Below are positions 24,812-28,119 of a DNA stretch of 33,052 bases, in pieces. The number at the start of each line of letters is the position of its first letter. Positions within the stretch are counted from its first letter, which is position 1. The notes under the pieces were generated by a model that was given only the letters and a program-made list of their open reading frames with translations, had not been told where the DNA came from and did not search any database. The position numbers and the translations under genes were made by a program. Location of the stretch: positions 1 through 33,052 of the forward strand of contig JAURFD010000017.1 of NCBI GenBank assembly GCA_030827125.1. The letters are read 5' to 3'. This stretch comes from Candidatus Nanopelagicales bacterium. Lineage in GTDB: Bacteria; Actinomycetota; Actinomycetes; S36-B12.

Positions 24812-24847
24812 ATGTATCGGCGGTGGAGCGGACCTAACCTGGCGGGC

Positions 24848-26206
24848 ATGGGTGTGTGCTTGCATCGCGGACGGCGCACCGCCGTCTACGTCGGGGCGCT
24901 AGTTTTCGCTACCGGATCGCTGGGAACGATCCCGACCACCGCTACGGCGTCGCCGGAGCATGCGCCATCCCACAGTGCAACGGCAGAAGTGTCCGGAGCA
25001 ACTCCATCGAGACTGACTGCAACAGGTTTGACGCGGGCGAACGATGGCCGATCACTCTCCGACGTCGGCATCACGGCGAATGCGAGCCTTCGCACCACGC
25101 CCGCACGCTACGCCCCCGGCACACCTCTCGACATTCGAGTCGCCGGAACCCTCGACATCAATGCCACGGCCAACGCGGTCTGCCACGGACTCGAACTCAC
25201 TGTCATGCGAGGAGCCATTCGACTCGGCGGTCGGCTCAGTTCACCAGACCGTTCCCCCATCATCGCTGGAGAGACACGCGTCGAGCCGGTTAACCTCGCC
25301 TTCGATCTTCCCGTCGACGACGTACCGACCACGGGGAATATCTCCGTCGACATAGCCCTGCAGTGCTCGCCCGTCATCGATGGCACGTGGGACTTTCCAG
25401 GAGAATCTTCCGTGGTCGCGACGACGACGATCCGGGCTGCGAGCGGCACCGTCATCGTCACCCCAGGCTGGGTTTTCCCGGATGCCGACGACGCCAAAGA
25501 GGCCCGTGTCACCGCGGGGACGACCGGTGGCAAGTCAACGATCCGAGTGAAGCGCGGCACCAAGACGGTGTGGACCAAGAAGACGTCTAAGTCACGCATC
25601 AACCTCGCGATCCCAACTTCGACGCTCTCGAAGTCCGGTACCTACACCGTCCTCGTGCGCGGCGATGGCAAGACCGCGCGCACGACGTTCCGTGTGAGTA
25701 AGGGTTGGGCACCCCTGATGAGCGAACCCGCCCATTGGGAGCGCTGCTCAACGATCACGTGGACCTACAACGACGCTCAAGCTCCTCGCGGCGGCGATAG
25801 GCAGATGATCGAGGACCTCACCAGGACCTTCGATCTCTACGAGCGACTGACCGGACTGACCTTCGTGCGCGTGAAGGAAGGTCCAGGGGACATCGTTATC
25901 GACTGGGCGAATCTCTCCGGTCAGGCCGATGGCTGGGGTGGGGCTTCGGGGTACGCCGGCATCCTCAGTGGCGGCAGCCTGACGCTGTCAACCACCAGTC
26001 GGTGGGCCAAGACCCCTGGTGACGGTGTGGACGGTCGAGGCGCACTGCTCAATCACGAGGTCGGACACACGCTTGGCCTCGGCCATGTCACCAACGACCG
26101 CGAATTGATGTTCCCGATCCACACTGGGGGCGTATCACCGCTGACCCCGCAGAAGGGCGACATCGCCGGGCTTCGTGAGTTGTACGCACCAGCTAACTGC
26201 CCGTGA
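24848..26206 (+). CDS. Secreted metzincin-like zinc metalloprotease (matrixin-type)
   Basis: A 452-residue exported protein. The signal peptide runs from RGRRTAVYVGALVF to about TATAS (residue 35). Residues 60-280 look like beta-rich adhesion or Ig-like domains (repeated Thr/Val strands, KSGTYTVLVRGDGKTARTTFRV). The C-terminal catalytic domain has HEVGHTLGLGH (H403, E404, H407, H413), the HExxHxxGxxH zinc site of metzincins, and a Met in RELMFP that could form the Met-turn. The function would be cleavage of extracellular proteins. ATG at 24848 is chosen over ATG 24812, which abuts the palindromic repeat, because TAACCT sits seven bases upstream and the signal peptide begins directly. Flanked on both sides by the palindromic repeat. 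Confidence 0.85.
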   Translation: MGVCLHRGRRTAVYVGALVFATGSLGTIPTTATASPEHAPSHSATAEVSGATPSRLTATGLTRANDGRSLSDVGITANASLRTTPARYAPGTPLDIRVAGTLDINATANAVCHGLELTVMRGAIRLGGRLSSPDRSPIIAGETRVEPVNLAFDLPVDDVPTTGNISVDIALQCSPVIDGTWDFPGESSVVATTTIRAASGTVIVTPGWVFPDADDAKEARVTAGTTGGKSTIRVKRGTKTVWTKKTSKSRINLAIPTSTLSKSGTYTVLVRGDGKTARTTFRVSKGWAPLMSEPAHWERCSTITWTYNDAQAPRGGDRQMIEDLTRTFDLYERLTGLTFVRVKEGPGDIVIDWANLSGQADGWGGASGYAGILSGGSLTLSTTSRWAKTPGDGVDGRGALLNHEVGHTLGLGHVTNDRELMFPIHTGGVSPLTPQKGDIAGLRELYAPANCP

Positions 26207-26270: not shown

Positions 26271-26813
26271 TCAGGCGAAGGTGATGGTGGTTTCCACAGG
26301 GATAGTTGAACGCAAGGTGTGCCCCACCGGTGAGGTCTGCAGAACATGCTCGTGCAACTCCGCCAGTTCGGCCGACGTAGCGCTGCTCTGCAACTTCACA
26401 TCCACCGCGATGTCATCGAATCCGGCGTGCCCACCGGGGCGCAGTCCGAGGAAGGTGTGCAGATCGAGGTTGCCGGAGATGTCGATGCTGAGTTCGTCAA
26501 TCTCGATTCCGCGCGCCGTGGCATTGGCGGCGTACCCCACGGCCAGGCAATTGCCCAGAGCCGCGAGCACCTGCTCCACCGGGTTGGGAGCCGAGTCAGT
26601 GCCACCGAGTGCGGCCGGCTCGTCGGAGGGAATGGGATCGAATGAGCGCACCTTTGCCTCACTGCGGAAGGCGCCGAGCCAGGTGACGCGTGCGCGCCAC
26701 GTCGTTGCGCTCTTGCTGGAATCGGTGGAAACCGCCTGAATGAGATTGCCCACGGCTTCGATATCGACATCGTTGAGCAACGTGGCGGCTTCGGTAGAGG
26801 TGTTGACGGACAT
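26271..26813 (-). CDS. OsmC-family protein under a SAM riboswitch
   Basis: A 180-residue OsmC-fold protein. Residues 75-98 contain SAPNPVEQVLAALGNCLAVG, the conserved helix with the active cysteine (C89). The second cysteine of peroxide-reducing OsmC/Ohr enzymes is replaced: the usual C-P-V reads TSPVGHTL with S161. A thiol peroxidase role is therefore doubtful; a thiol- or acyl-binding or sulphur-handling role is possible. ATG at 26813 has AAAGG seven bases upstream. The frame is open further up and would add MSSCCAPSHTSKGTT with tandem Cys codons, but no ribosome-binding site supports that. The mRNA carries a SAM-I aptamer about 190 bases before the start, tying expression to S-adenosylmethionine level. 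Confidence 0.87.
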   Translation of the reverse strand: MSVNTSTEAATLLNDVDIEAVGNLIQAVSTDSSKSATTWRARVTWLGAFRSEAKVRSFDPIPSDEPAALGGTDSAPNPVEQVLAALGNCLAVGYAANATARGIEIDELSIDISGNLDLHTFLGLRPGGHAGFDDIAVDVKLQSSATSAELAELHEHVLQTSPVGHTLRSTIPVETTITFA

Positions 26814-26999
26814 GGTGGTTCCTTTCGACGTATGTGAAGGGGCGCAGCAGGACGACATTCGCGTCTGCCGACGCAGGGAATATGGGTTCGCGGTCAATGC
26901 CGCGGGAAGTCAATGAAATCCCACTGATCTCGGGCTATCGGGCATGCCGACAGCGCATCAAGTCAGTGGCGCATACAGGGTTCCATCGCAAGGCCTCTC
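26814..26999 (-). other. Long leader between SAM riboswitch and OsmC gene
   Basis: This 186-base stretch holds no convincing gene. On the minus strand it contains a long-range pairing CCACTGA/TCAGTGG (26963-26969 with 26921-26927), a GCGTC/GACGC stem-loop (26861-26874) and the ribosome-binding site AAAGG (26821-26825), which could pair with the nearby CCTT at 26837-26840. No U-run terminator is seen, so control is more likely at translation or by Rho than by intrinsic termination. Structure is read by eye only. Confidence 0.45.
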
Positions 27000-27131
27000 G
27001 CTCATCTTTCTCCTGCACCGTGCAGGAGACGGAGGTGGCACCACTCCGCGTCGGGCCTTGCGGATGCAAGACGATCGCGGCAGGTTGCCGGGGCTTCATC
27101 GGGCCGTATCCCTCTGCCCCTCTGGATGAGG
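27000..27131 (-). ncRNA. SAM-I (S-box) riboswitch aptamer
   Basis: Read on the minus strand, all core S-box blocks occur in order: P1 CTCATC, then CAGAGGGGCAGAGGGA (kink-turn and P2), ACGGCCCGATGAAG, CCCCGGCAACC, a P3 stem closed by CCGCG/CGCGG with an inner CTTGC/GCAAG, then GGTGCCACCTCC, a P4 hairpin CTCCTGC/GCAGGAG, and AGATGAG closing P1. These match the SAM-I consensus (GAGGGA, GGCCC-ATGAA, CGGCAACC, GGTGC-A--TCC). It senses S-adenosylmethionine and normally switches genes off when SAM is high. The target is the OsmC-family gene at 26813. Confidence 0.95.
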
Positions 27132-27149
27132 TATTCAGTTGTGGGGATG

Positions 27150-27179
27150 AAGATACCCGACCGCACGCATGGTTGTCAC
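27150..27179 (-). promoter_or_regulatory. Probable promoter of the riboswitch-OsmC transcript
   Basis: On the minus strand GTGACA (27174-27179) and TATCTT (27150-27155) are 18 bp apart, resembling -35 and -10 boxes. Transcription would start near 27143, about a dozen bases before the P1 helix of the riboswitch, a typical distance. Confidence 0.5.
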
Positions 27180-27225: not shown

Positions 27226-28119
27226 ATGCTGTCCGCGGCCGCGCTCGTTGCCCTACAGCAGCGGTATCCCGGGCTTATCGACAAGCCCATCGCACCGTTC
27301 ACGCTCCAGGGCCAGTCCTTCGATACCGACACCAACCCGGTCGTCATGGGCGTGGTGAATTTGTCCCGCGACTCCACCTACCGCGAGAGCGTCGCACTGA
27401 CGCGCGAATCGGCGATCCGCAAGGCACGTGTGCAATTCGCCGAAGGCGCGCACGTCATCGACATCGGTGCTGAATCCAGCCGCGGTGACGCGGCCCGCGT
27501 GGACAGCGCTTCGCAAATCGCACAACTGGTTCCGGTGATCGAGCAACTGTCGAGCGAGGGCATCCCGGTCTCGGTCGAGTCCTACGACGCCAACGTCGTC
27601 GCCGCCTGCCTCGCAGCCGGGGCATGCATGGTCAACATGACCAGCCGCGATCCGGGCGACGCGATTCTCGAGCAGGTGGCCGCCGCGGGCGCCGCGGTGA
27701 TCTTGTGCTTCCTCCCCGGTGAGCACGCGCGTGACGGGGCGTCCTACACCTTGCAGGATGATCCGATCCCGCAACTACTCGAGTACTTCGCCGATCGCGT
27801 TGCGCGGGCGCGCGAACTCGGCGTGACCTCGATGGCCATCGACCCGGGCCTGGGCTTCTACTACGGGCCGCACGTGTCGCAGCCGGTGAAACAGCGTCAC
27901 CAGGGCCAGACCCTGCTCCACTCGTTCCGCCTGCGGGAGTTGGGTGTCCCCATCTGTCAACTCATGCCGCACGGCTTCGACTTCTTCGAGGACCGCTACC
28001 GCGTCGGTGAGCCCTTCTTCACCGTGCTTGCCCGTCTCGGAGGTGTCGGTGTTTACCGCGTTCACGAGGTGCCCGAGGTCGTTCGCGTGCTGAGGACGAT
28101 GAACGAGTTGTCGATCTAA
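27226..28119 (+). CDS. Dihydropteroate synthase-like pterin-binding-fold protein, atypical active site
   Basis: A 297-residue TIM barrel related to dihydropteroate synthase. Recognisable motifs are MGVVNLSRDSTY (41-52, for MGxxNxTPDSF), VIDIGAESSRG (for DxGGESTRPG), VSVESYDANVVAACLAAGACMVNM (for the SVDTxK...NDI strand), AIDPGLGFYYG (for DPGxGFGK, pterin-binding Asp kept) and YRVHEVPEV (for RVHDV). The SRKxxxG motif with the lysine that binds pterin and p-aminobenzoate is replaced by LMPHGFDFFED. It may thus not make folate; it could be a pterin-binding or other methyltransferase-like protein. ATG at 27226 with TAGCCT six bases upstream and no clear ribosome-binding site. Divergent from the riboswitch transcript. 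Confidence 0.75.
   Translation: MLSAAALVALQQRYPGLIDKPIAPFTLQGQSFDTDTNPVVMGVVNLSRDSTYRESVALTRESAIRKARVQFAEGAHVIDIGAESSRGDAARVDSASQIAQLVPVIEQLSSEGIPVSVESYDANVVAACLAAGACMVNMTSRDPGDAILEQVAAAGAAVILCFLPGEHARDGASYTLQDDPIPQLLEYFADRVARARELGVTSMAIDPGLGFYYGPHVSQPVKQRHQGQTLLHSFRLRELGVPICQLMPHGFDFFEDRYRVGEPFFTVLARLGGVGVYRVHEVPEVVRVLRTMNELSI

Follow-up and report, generated by a model that had tools for sequence, protein, structure and literature searches.

The osmC gene of a Candidatus Nanopelagicales bacterium (Actinomycetota) lies behind a SAM-I riboswitch, and it is probable, to a moderate degree, that this is a sulfur-limitation gene under two-stage RNA control, in which the riboswitch is combined with a leader ORF carrying methionine and cysteine (Met/Cys) codons. 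We analyzed a window of 33,052 nucleotides, contig JAURFD010000017.1 of assembly GCA_030827125.1, and compared its osmC locus with those of related genomes. In a more specific version, to which we give an even chance, the direct target of the riboswitch would be the Met/Cys leader ORF itself. SAM would then gate a sensor of charged Met- and Cys-tRNA, making a two-input control of osmC(-metY); the leader, together with its hairpin, would belong to a family of sulfur amino-acid attenuators that serves not only osmC but also metY/metZ, sulfurtransferase, and sulfonate uptake genes in Acidimicrobiia and their relatives, and the single-Cys OsmC would handle sulfur as a partner of homocysteine synthesis. 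The aptamer, its conservation, the Met/Cys-biased leader ORF, the covarying hairpin behind it, and the same hairpin at other sulfur genes were all computed. The SAM arm of the proposal rests on an established riboswitch class, and the leader arm on codon bias, covariation, and shared targets.

An earlier note on this DNA had read a complete S-box aptamer on the minus strand with a stand-alone OsmC-fold gene downstream, and both readings were borne out (Table 1). RF00162 matched at full length (model positions 1 to 108; E 9.7e-16), with a score well above its gathering score of 44.4. The osmC ORF, 185 nt from the aptamer, matched PF02566 with 68.5 bits (cut-off 27.5), and the flanking ORFs are convergent and divergent. 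RF00162 was the winner among the SAM clan models, ahead of SAM-IV and SAM-I-IV; therefore, we classify the RNA as SAM-I, possibly with an added pairing that resembles PK-2. By covariance model it is a SAM-I riboswitch, for which SAM binding and SAH rejection are predicted. A search of its own genome (2.6 Mb, 97.2% complete) at E up to 0.001 found no second RF00162 copy. The ATG at 26813 was taken as the best start of osmC because AAAGGAA lies ahead of it, and the upstream TTG start of the ORF list was set aside in its favor.

Table 1. Features of the osmC locus in the window (positions on the 33,052-nucleotide stretch)
Feature	Position	Strand	Basis or remark
Convergent ORF beyond osmC	24812-26206	+	Peptidase_M10
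OsmC-family protein, 180 aa, single Cys (C89), Ser161 in the place of the second Cys	26271-26813	-	PF02566
osmC Shine-Dalgarno AAAGGAA	26819-26825	-	Sequence
Hairpin CCACTGA...TCAGTGG, its 5' arm containing the leader ORF end and stop; then GATTTCATT	26921-26969	-	
Predicted leader ORF MEPCMRH*	26963-26986	-	Read from sequence; 3/3 genus members with osmC
GGCCTTGCG, putative partner of the P3-arm segment	26987-26995	-	Ends just before the leader start codon
SD-like GAGAGG, overlapped by GGCCTTGCG	26994-26999	-	
SAM-I (S-box) aptamer with long P3 arm	26999-27132	-	RF00162, 73.9 bits
P3-arm segment CGCAAGGCC, complementary to the ribosome site after P1	27054-27062	-	9 Watson-Crick pairs
Promoter-like GTGACA-18-TATCTT	27150-27179	-	Consensus scan 9/12, 0.2 expected in shuffles; weak
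Divergent gene behind the riboswitch, DHPS-like pterin-binding protein	27226-28119	+	Pterin_bind; TIGR01496 122.4 bits, under its cut-off of 162.6

Besides the window genus, a further Nanopelagicales genome and many genomes titled Acidimicrobiia keep the pairing of S-box and osmC. In a family sample of 59 genomes, close osmC orthologues with an S-box upstream were found in three members of the window genus (G000, the window genome, G036, and G051; 3/3), while G005 also carries a close orthologue on a contig that ends ~170 nt ahead of osmC; the other five genus members in this sample have neither an osmC orthologue nor an S-box. The earlier note had staked its reading on a conserved aptamer before orthologous osmC genes. 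Among 80 named relatives, the best of 197 that were confirmed, 21 carry such an aptamer upstream of osmC and in the same orientation, and so do no fewer than 24 of 32 osmC genes of the window type in a class sample. Chance occurrence of the S-box is therefore rejected. Those 21 loci, all uncultured or metagenome records, account for every RF00162 match above cut-off in the 80, so that 59 are without one, including the isolate records (Gordonia, Nocardia, Saccharothrix, and others). The class sample consists of 296 genomes from the class of the genome carrying locus L084, including L057, L059, L069, L081, L103, and other Acidimicrobiia-titled records, with osmC type membership set at E up to 1e-60. 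Its figure of at least 24 comprises 22 S-boxes among the matches listed, L179, where the aptamer is visible upstream, and one osmC gene split over two contigs with overlapping ends. No S-box was found at the remaining eight genes of the class sample, three of which are without a visible leader too, nor at the osmC of G071 (L061) in the window's order. In the window and all but one of the 21 named loci, about 185 to 300 nt separate the S-box from osmC. As a separate observation, locus L112 also carries an SAH riboswitch (RF01057, 56.7 bits; 644-734 of that locus, minus strand) ~1.8 kb from its S-box and osmC, on the opposite strand.

Between the aptamer and osmC, a short ORF containing codons for Met, Cys, or both was recognized by eye in all but one (L112) of 33 S-box/osmC leaders, namely, the 21 named loci, the window, ten from the class sample, and the split gene. 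Outside the window genus, this leader usually starts about 60 to 80 nt after the aptamer, behind a Shine-Dalgarno (SD) sequence, and its Met/Cys codons stand directly ahead of a strong hairpin (for example, SCCCSRV, HVCSMCCPRSRV, and, in the S-box-less L123, VMCMCMPCSRV); in L103 and L116, the codons near the hairpin include Met but not Cys. The codon bias was counted in 20 non-redundant leaders, which remained of 36 after removal of similar ones, the 36 including eight without a nearby RF00162 or on a cut contig and three of a second osmC type. Met or Cys occupied 61 of the 180 positions in the nine codons before the hairpin, compared with 26/160 and 6/160 in the other frames of the same leaders; 2000 sets of shuffled leaders averaged 10.4 and never exceeded 21. 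None of ten leader peptides tested matched an NCBIfam model. In L054 and L055, an alternative leader ORF beginning MSERPC was discarded, on the grounds that its AUG falls within P1 and that no SD was seen. In the window, the leader has 7 codons, 3 of them Met or Cys counting the start, and its sixth codon is Arg, versus Cys in the two genus relatives (MEPCMCH* and MNPCMCH*). A leader-peptide attenuator is thus suggested by a codon bias that is strong in the relatives, with translation of the 7-codon window copy being predicted.

The hairpin itself covaries. Across 35 sequences, 92.4% of the cells of helix A:B are paired and 6 of its 12 pairs have changed on both sides, the 5' strand having been located by motif in the alignment, which limits the variation on that side; slid versions of the same hairpin pair in only 35% to 46% of cells. 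For the whole structure, covariation was 0.172 versus 0.114 in shuffled alignments (0/500, in shuffles that ignore relatedness). A second helix, B':C, is 72.7% paired, with several rows seemingly misaligned, and no weight is placed on it. An attenuator should have a conserved RNA structure at its codon run or behind it; in the relatives this is the covarying A:B helix, and in the window a hairpin with a fold z of -4.0 (-3.9 and -5.5 in its two genus relatives). The window leader and hairpin may be seen as a diverged member of the group, with weaker support drawn from these three related sequences. A classical transcription attenuator with a terminator and U-tract is not supported, since a scan of the window leader gave no intrinsic terminator and TTTT follows the hairpin in only 2 of the 35 relatives (L117 and L188).

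A covariance model built from the osmC leaders, R1, located the same structure at other sulfur genes. In a set of 27 genomes, picked because the majority have the system, R1 gave 33 matches at E up to 1e-3; by construction, 22 of these are members of the model. Among the non-members, three belong to osmC genes of the window type (the two ends of the split G188 gene, and L124, which had been left out of the model) and three to the second osmC type (L218, L221, and L224). Others lie before (i) a rhodanese-like gene followed by a partial sulfite reductase match (L219, with the leader VVSCCCGCC), its identity being read from the sequence, with no NCBIfam match at E 1e-20; (ii) a 3-mercaptopyruvate-sulfurtransferase-like gene under its family cut-off (L220); (iii) an ssuA gene above cut-off, then an ssuC-like permease (L223); and (iv) an O-succinylhomoserine sulfhydrylase above cut-off (L225, with the leader MCMCLM). 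The eleventh non-member is G169:C11, and a metY leader (L222) scored E 0.00102. An S-box accompanies the R1 matches at L218 and L221 to L224, and none was found at L219, L220, or L225; the leader/hairpin module is therefore independent of the riboswitch. Leader and hairpin without a nearby RF00162 also occur at osmC itself (L060, L117, L123, L199, L200, and L201), and L113 likewise gave no RF00162 on a contig that begins about 70 nt before the leader. In the window's order, R1 matched in 2 of 166 genomes (G005 and G076) and not in G000; in the scan of the 27 genomes, R1 did not recover its own member L081 in G173. In L124 (2819-2861), the 5' hairpin strand (GCGCTCCCGGGTGTCCCAGCC) is tandemly repeated, which repeats RSRVSQP in the leader peptide.

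How the riboswitch might reach the leader is suggested by complementarities around the ribosome sites. The P3 arm of S-boxes in the window's family contains (C/T)(G/A)AGGCC, which is complementary to GGCCT(C/T)(G/A) in the ribosome site that directly follows P1, and a Watson-Crick run of at least 7 between the two was found in 18 of the 21 long-arm S-boxes (of 33 S-boxes in the 59-genome family sample), with shuffles giving at most 4. Both sides have changed together, as TGAGGCC/GGCCTCA, CGAGGCC/GGCCTCG, and CAAGGCC/GGCCTTG. This predicted pairing resembles the PK-2 of SAM-IV, for which the available part of one report served as comparison (PMC6890682). Also in the window's family, 13 plus-strand S-boxes (L025, L028, L030, L032, L033, L036-L042, and L044) run into the start of a threonine-synthase-like ORF, of which that of L032 alone was checked by family (PALP), and there too the P3 arm is complementary to the ribosome site. 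A different helix appeared when the stretch after P1 was folded in the 28 osmC leaders (among them L112) that come from outside the window genus: in 21, the minimum-energy fold pairs the first SD after P1 with an upstream anti-SD, mostly CTCC, and in the other seven this masking helix was not seen. The masked SD is that of osmC itself in L112 and that of the leader ORF in the other 20.

Pairing between the leader and the osmC ribosome-binding site was also stronger for true than for swapped partners (0/5000 permutations, which ignore relatedness; mean z -0.9; n = 33), and this advantage of the own partner points to translation control. L056, L112, L119, and L178 had been excluded from the test in advance; L075 was dropped because it had no start, and, apart from L087 and L102, so were leaders lacking the hairpin motif. 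The window genus showed no such pairing (z 1.0, -0.1, and 0.6).

From these observations, we infer masking, stalling, an output step, and their two-input logic, and propose that control would proceed in two stages: (i) the SAM-I riboswitch would act on translation, so that with SAM bound the ribosome site of the leader ORF is masked, in the window through the predicted pairing of the P3 arm with the leader start region and in Acidimicrobiia-type relatives through the anti-SD helix. At high SAM, the leader start would stay masked, the second sensor unread, and osmC expression low, and at low SAM the leader would be opened. (ii) If Met and Cys are then plentiful, the ribosome would pass and the structures re-form. 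Since the Met/Cys codons lie directly before the conserved hairpin, a shortage of charged Met- or Cys-tRNA would stall the ribosome on them and shift the folding, and osmC would be expressed. The output is likely to be the freeing of the osmC ribosome site; avoidance of early termination is less likely.

The same locus could be read more simply, as a SAM-I switch that controls osmC directly by termination or masking, with an ordinary spacer, a fortuitous leader ORF, and no sensing of amino acids. L112, which lacks a leader ORF and has its S-box immediately at the ribosome site of osmC, would fit this reading, as would the presence of the 7-codon ORF in only three related sequences in the window genus. 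However, a fortuitous ORF would not be expected to show a Met/Cys bias far above shuffles or to end in a hairpin that covaries, and the osmC loci with leader and hairpin but no RF00162 mark these as a separate conserved module; the long gap kept between S-box and osmC also speaks against an ordinary spacer. On balance, we regard a plain switch as unlikely. Distinctly improbable, in our judgment, is a leader ORF that merely couples translation to osmC, in a manner resembling termination-reinitiation, with the riboswitch setting leader translation and no sensing of Met or Cys. The leader frame does reach the osmC start in L057, and in the available text of a study of Mycobacterium tuberculosis, B12 riboswitches act together with upstream ORFs, one of which must be translated for downstream expression (PMC11260477). 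Yet the leader stop lies about 50 to 125 nt from osmC in most loci (about 150 to 195 nt in the window and L054), which is far for reinitiation, and the Met/Cys codons are clustered just ahead of the hairpin.

OsmC is best known as a peroxidase, and OsmC proteins are usually filed as stress peroxidases, of which the Ohr/OsmC type uses a catalytic Cys pair. The window protein has no second catalytic Cys. The first (C89) is invariant in all 96 aligned relatives, the window included, and the second position is Ser in 95 of the 96, the remaining row being truncated; two paralogous OsmC-family proteins of the same genome (L020 and L023) have Cys there. The alignment also shows this Ser in 2opl (E 7.8e-16), the nearest solved structure by sequence. 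The missing second Cys speaks against a two-Cys peroxidase mechanism and is compatible with a one-Cys peroxidase. A defensive role, concerning the protein only, would have OsmC act against peroxides or disulfides and be induced when sulfur is short because thiol defenses fail. This we consider somewhat unlikely: the first Cys is kept in 96/96, and the authors of work on SAR11, in the part of their report available, call OsmC a peroxidase and suggest that it answers osmolyte loss in low sulfur (PMC5069961), but the replacement of the second Cys and the position of metY after osmC in 19 loci both stand against it. We favor a role in sulfur supply, in which OsmC probably handles reduced sulfur for homocysteine synthesis of the MetY type.

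The earlier note had proposed that OsmC works in sulfur or methyl metabolism and not in peroxide defense; its sulfur reading is supported by the conserved S-box and by metY, as well as by the S-box of the second osmC type and the Ser in place of the second Cys. A metY match in the same orientation begins 12 to about 230 nt downstream of osmC in 19 related loci (L057, L075, L080, L081, L084, L087, L103, L105, L108, L113, L117, L119, L123, L183, L185, L188, L199, L200, and L201). That of L057 is more distant (37% to 40% identity), and the four checked by family (L075, L087, L105, and L108) lie above the TIGR01326 cut-off. In the window genus, metY lies elsewhere, and each of the 11 genomes has it whether it carries osmC or not, so that a link in presence between osmC and metY inside the genus was rejected; none of the three osmC-bearing members has metY beside osmC. 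Other S-box genes in related genomes resemble metH, metY, and thrC. The second osmC type likewise bears an S-box and stands upstream of a flavoprotein gene.

Several further observations concern these sulfur genes. The second-type osmC genes with an S-box are L159, L160, L165, L172, L218, L221, and L224, with the flavoprotein gene adjoining in those seen; six of the seven, L172 excepted, have a Cys/Met leader by motif, and two of the flavoproteins match TIGR04046 under its cut-off. In L149 (406-1449, minus strand) and L207 (after 1590), S-boxes control ORFs that are similar by eye, the one in L149 containing RRNVHLVGTMPADDAADAFRLF; the L149 protein (347 aa) gave no Pfam match at E 1e-5 and no NCBIfam match at E 1e-10 and would thus be a family-less protein in a predicted SAM regulon. 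The S-box leader of L152 (after 1584) holds a tiny ORF, MGQQQEACC*, with two terminal Cys codons, and the ORF behind it resembles the metH of L146 by eye. In the window's own genome, a PAPS-reductase family search gave one match, fitting CysH or CysD alike.

Taken together, SAM-I control, the Met/Cys leader, and metY place a single-Cys branch of OsmC in methionine and cysteine supply, as in SAR11 with SAM-V, and the pairing offers a direct, testable handle on the function of this branch. If the proposal is true, a metabolite riboswitch that gates a leader sensing tRNA charge would be a compact two-input RNA circuit. We found no report of such a circuit, or of a SAM-I riboswitch nested with a Met/Cys leader, in the open-licence literature, mostly at title and abstract level.

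Canestrari 2020 reportedly described polycysteine leader attenuators of mycobacteria. Those leaders are similar to ours in being actinobacterial ORFs with Cys codons before sulfur genes, where ribosome speed sets downstream expression; as far as the available texts go, the system described here differs in its covarying hairpin, its Met as well as Cys codons, its osmC/metY targets, and its upstream SAM-I switch. Mycobacterial Cys leader ORFs before sulfur genes have been described (PMC9031893, PMC13236596), and mycobacterial leader peptides have been predicted, with no conserved terminator hairpin in the part of the source available (PMC1262725). That source also presents the LEU element of Actinobacteria, a leader ORF and pseudoknot before leuA, in which the codon run pairs with the SD of the target (PMC1262725). 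There, as here, a leader codon run lies near alternative RNA pairings in Actinobacteria, whereas the LEU element concerns leucine, has another sequence and fold and, in the text available, no riboswitch, and the corresponding pairing of codon region and SD is statistically suggested here.

A parallel in gene and ligand comes from SAR11. In Candidatus Pelagibacter ubique, a SAM-V riboswitch precedes osmC, which, according to the available part of that report, is the most up-regulated gene under sulfur limitation (PMC5069961). A SAM riboswitch ahead of osmC is thus common to both systems, although riboswitch class and phylum differ, and a Met/Cys leader ORF goes unmentioned in that part of the text (PMC5069961). 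A second input related to methionine tRNA has its counterpart in Xanthomonas, where a SAM-I riboswitch responds to uncharged initiator tRNA as well; that platform, as described in the available text, binds the tRNA directly, whereas we propose a translated leader ORF (PMC7270179). The B12 riboswitches of M. tuberculosis likewise combine a switch with a short ORF in Actinobacteria; their ligand is different, and the accessible portion of the report makes no claim of sensing through Met/Cys codons, which is what we propose for the leader described here (PMC11260477).
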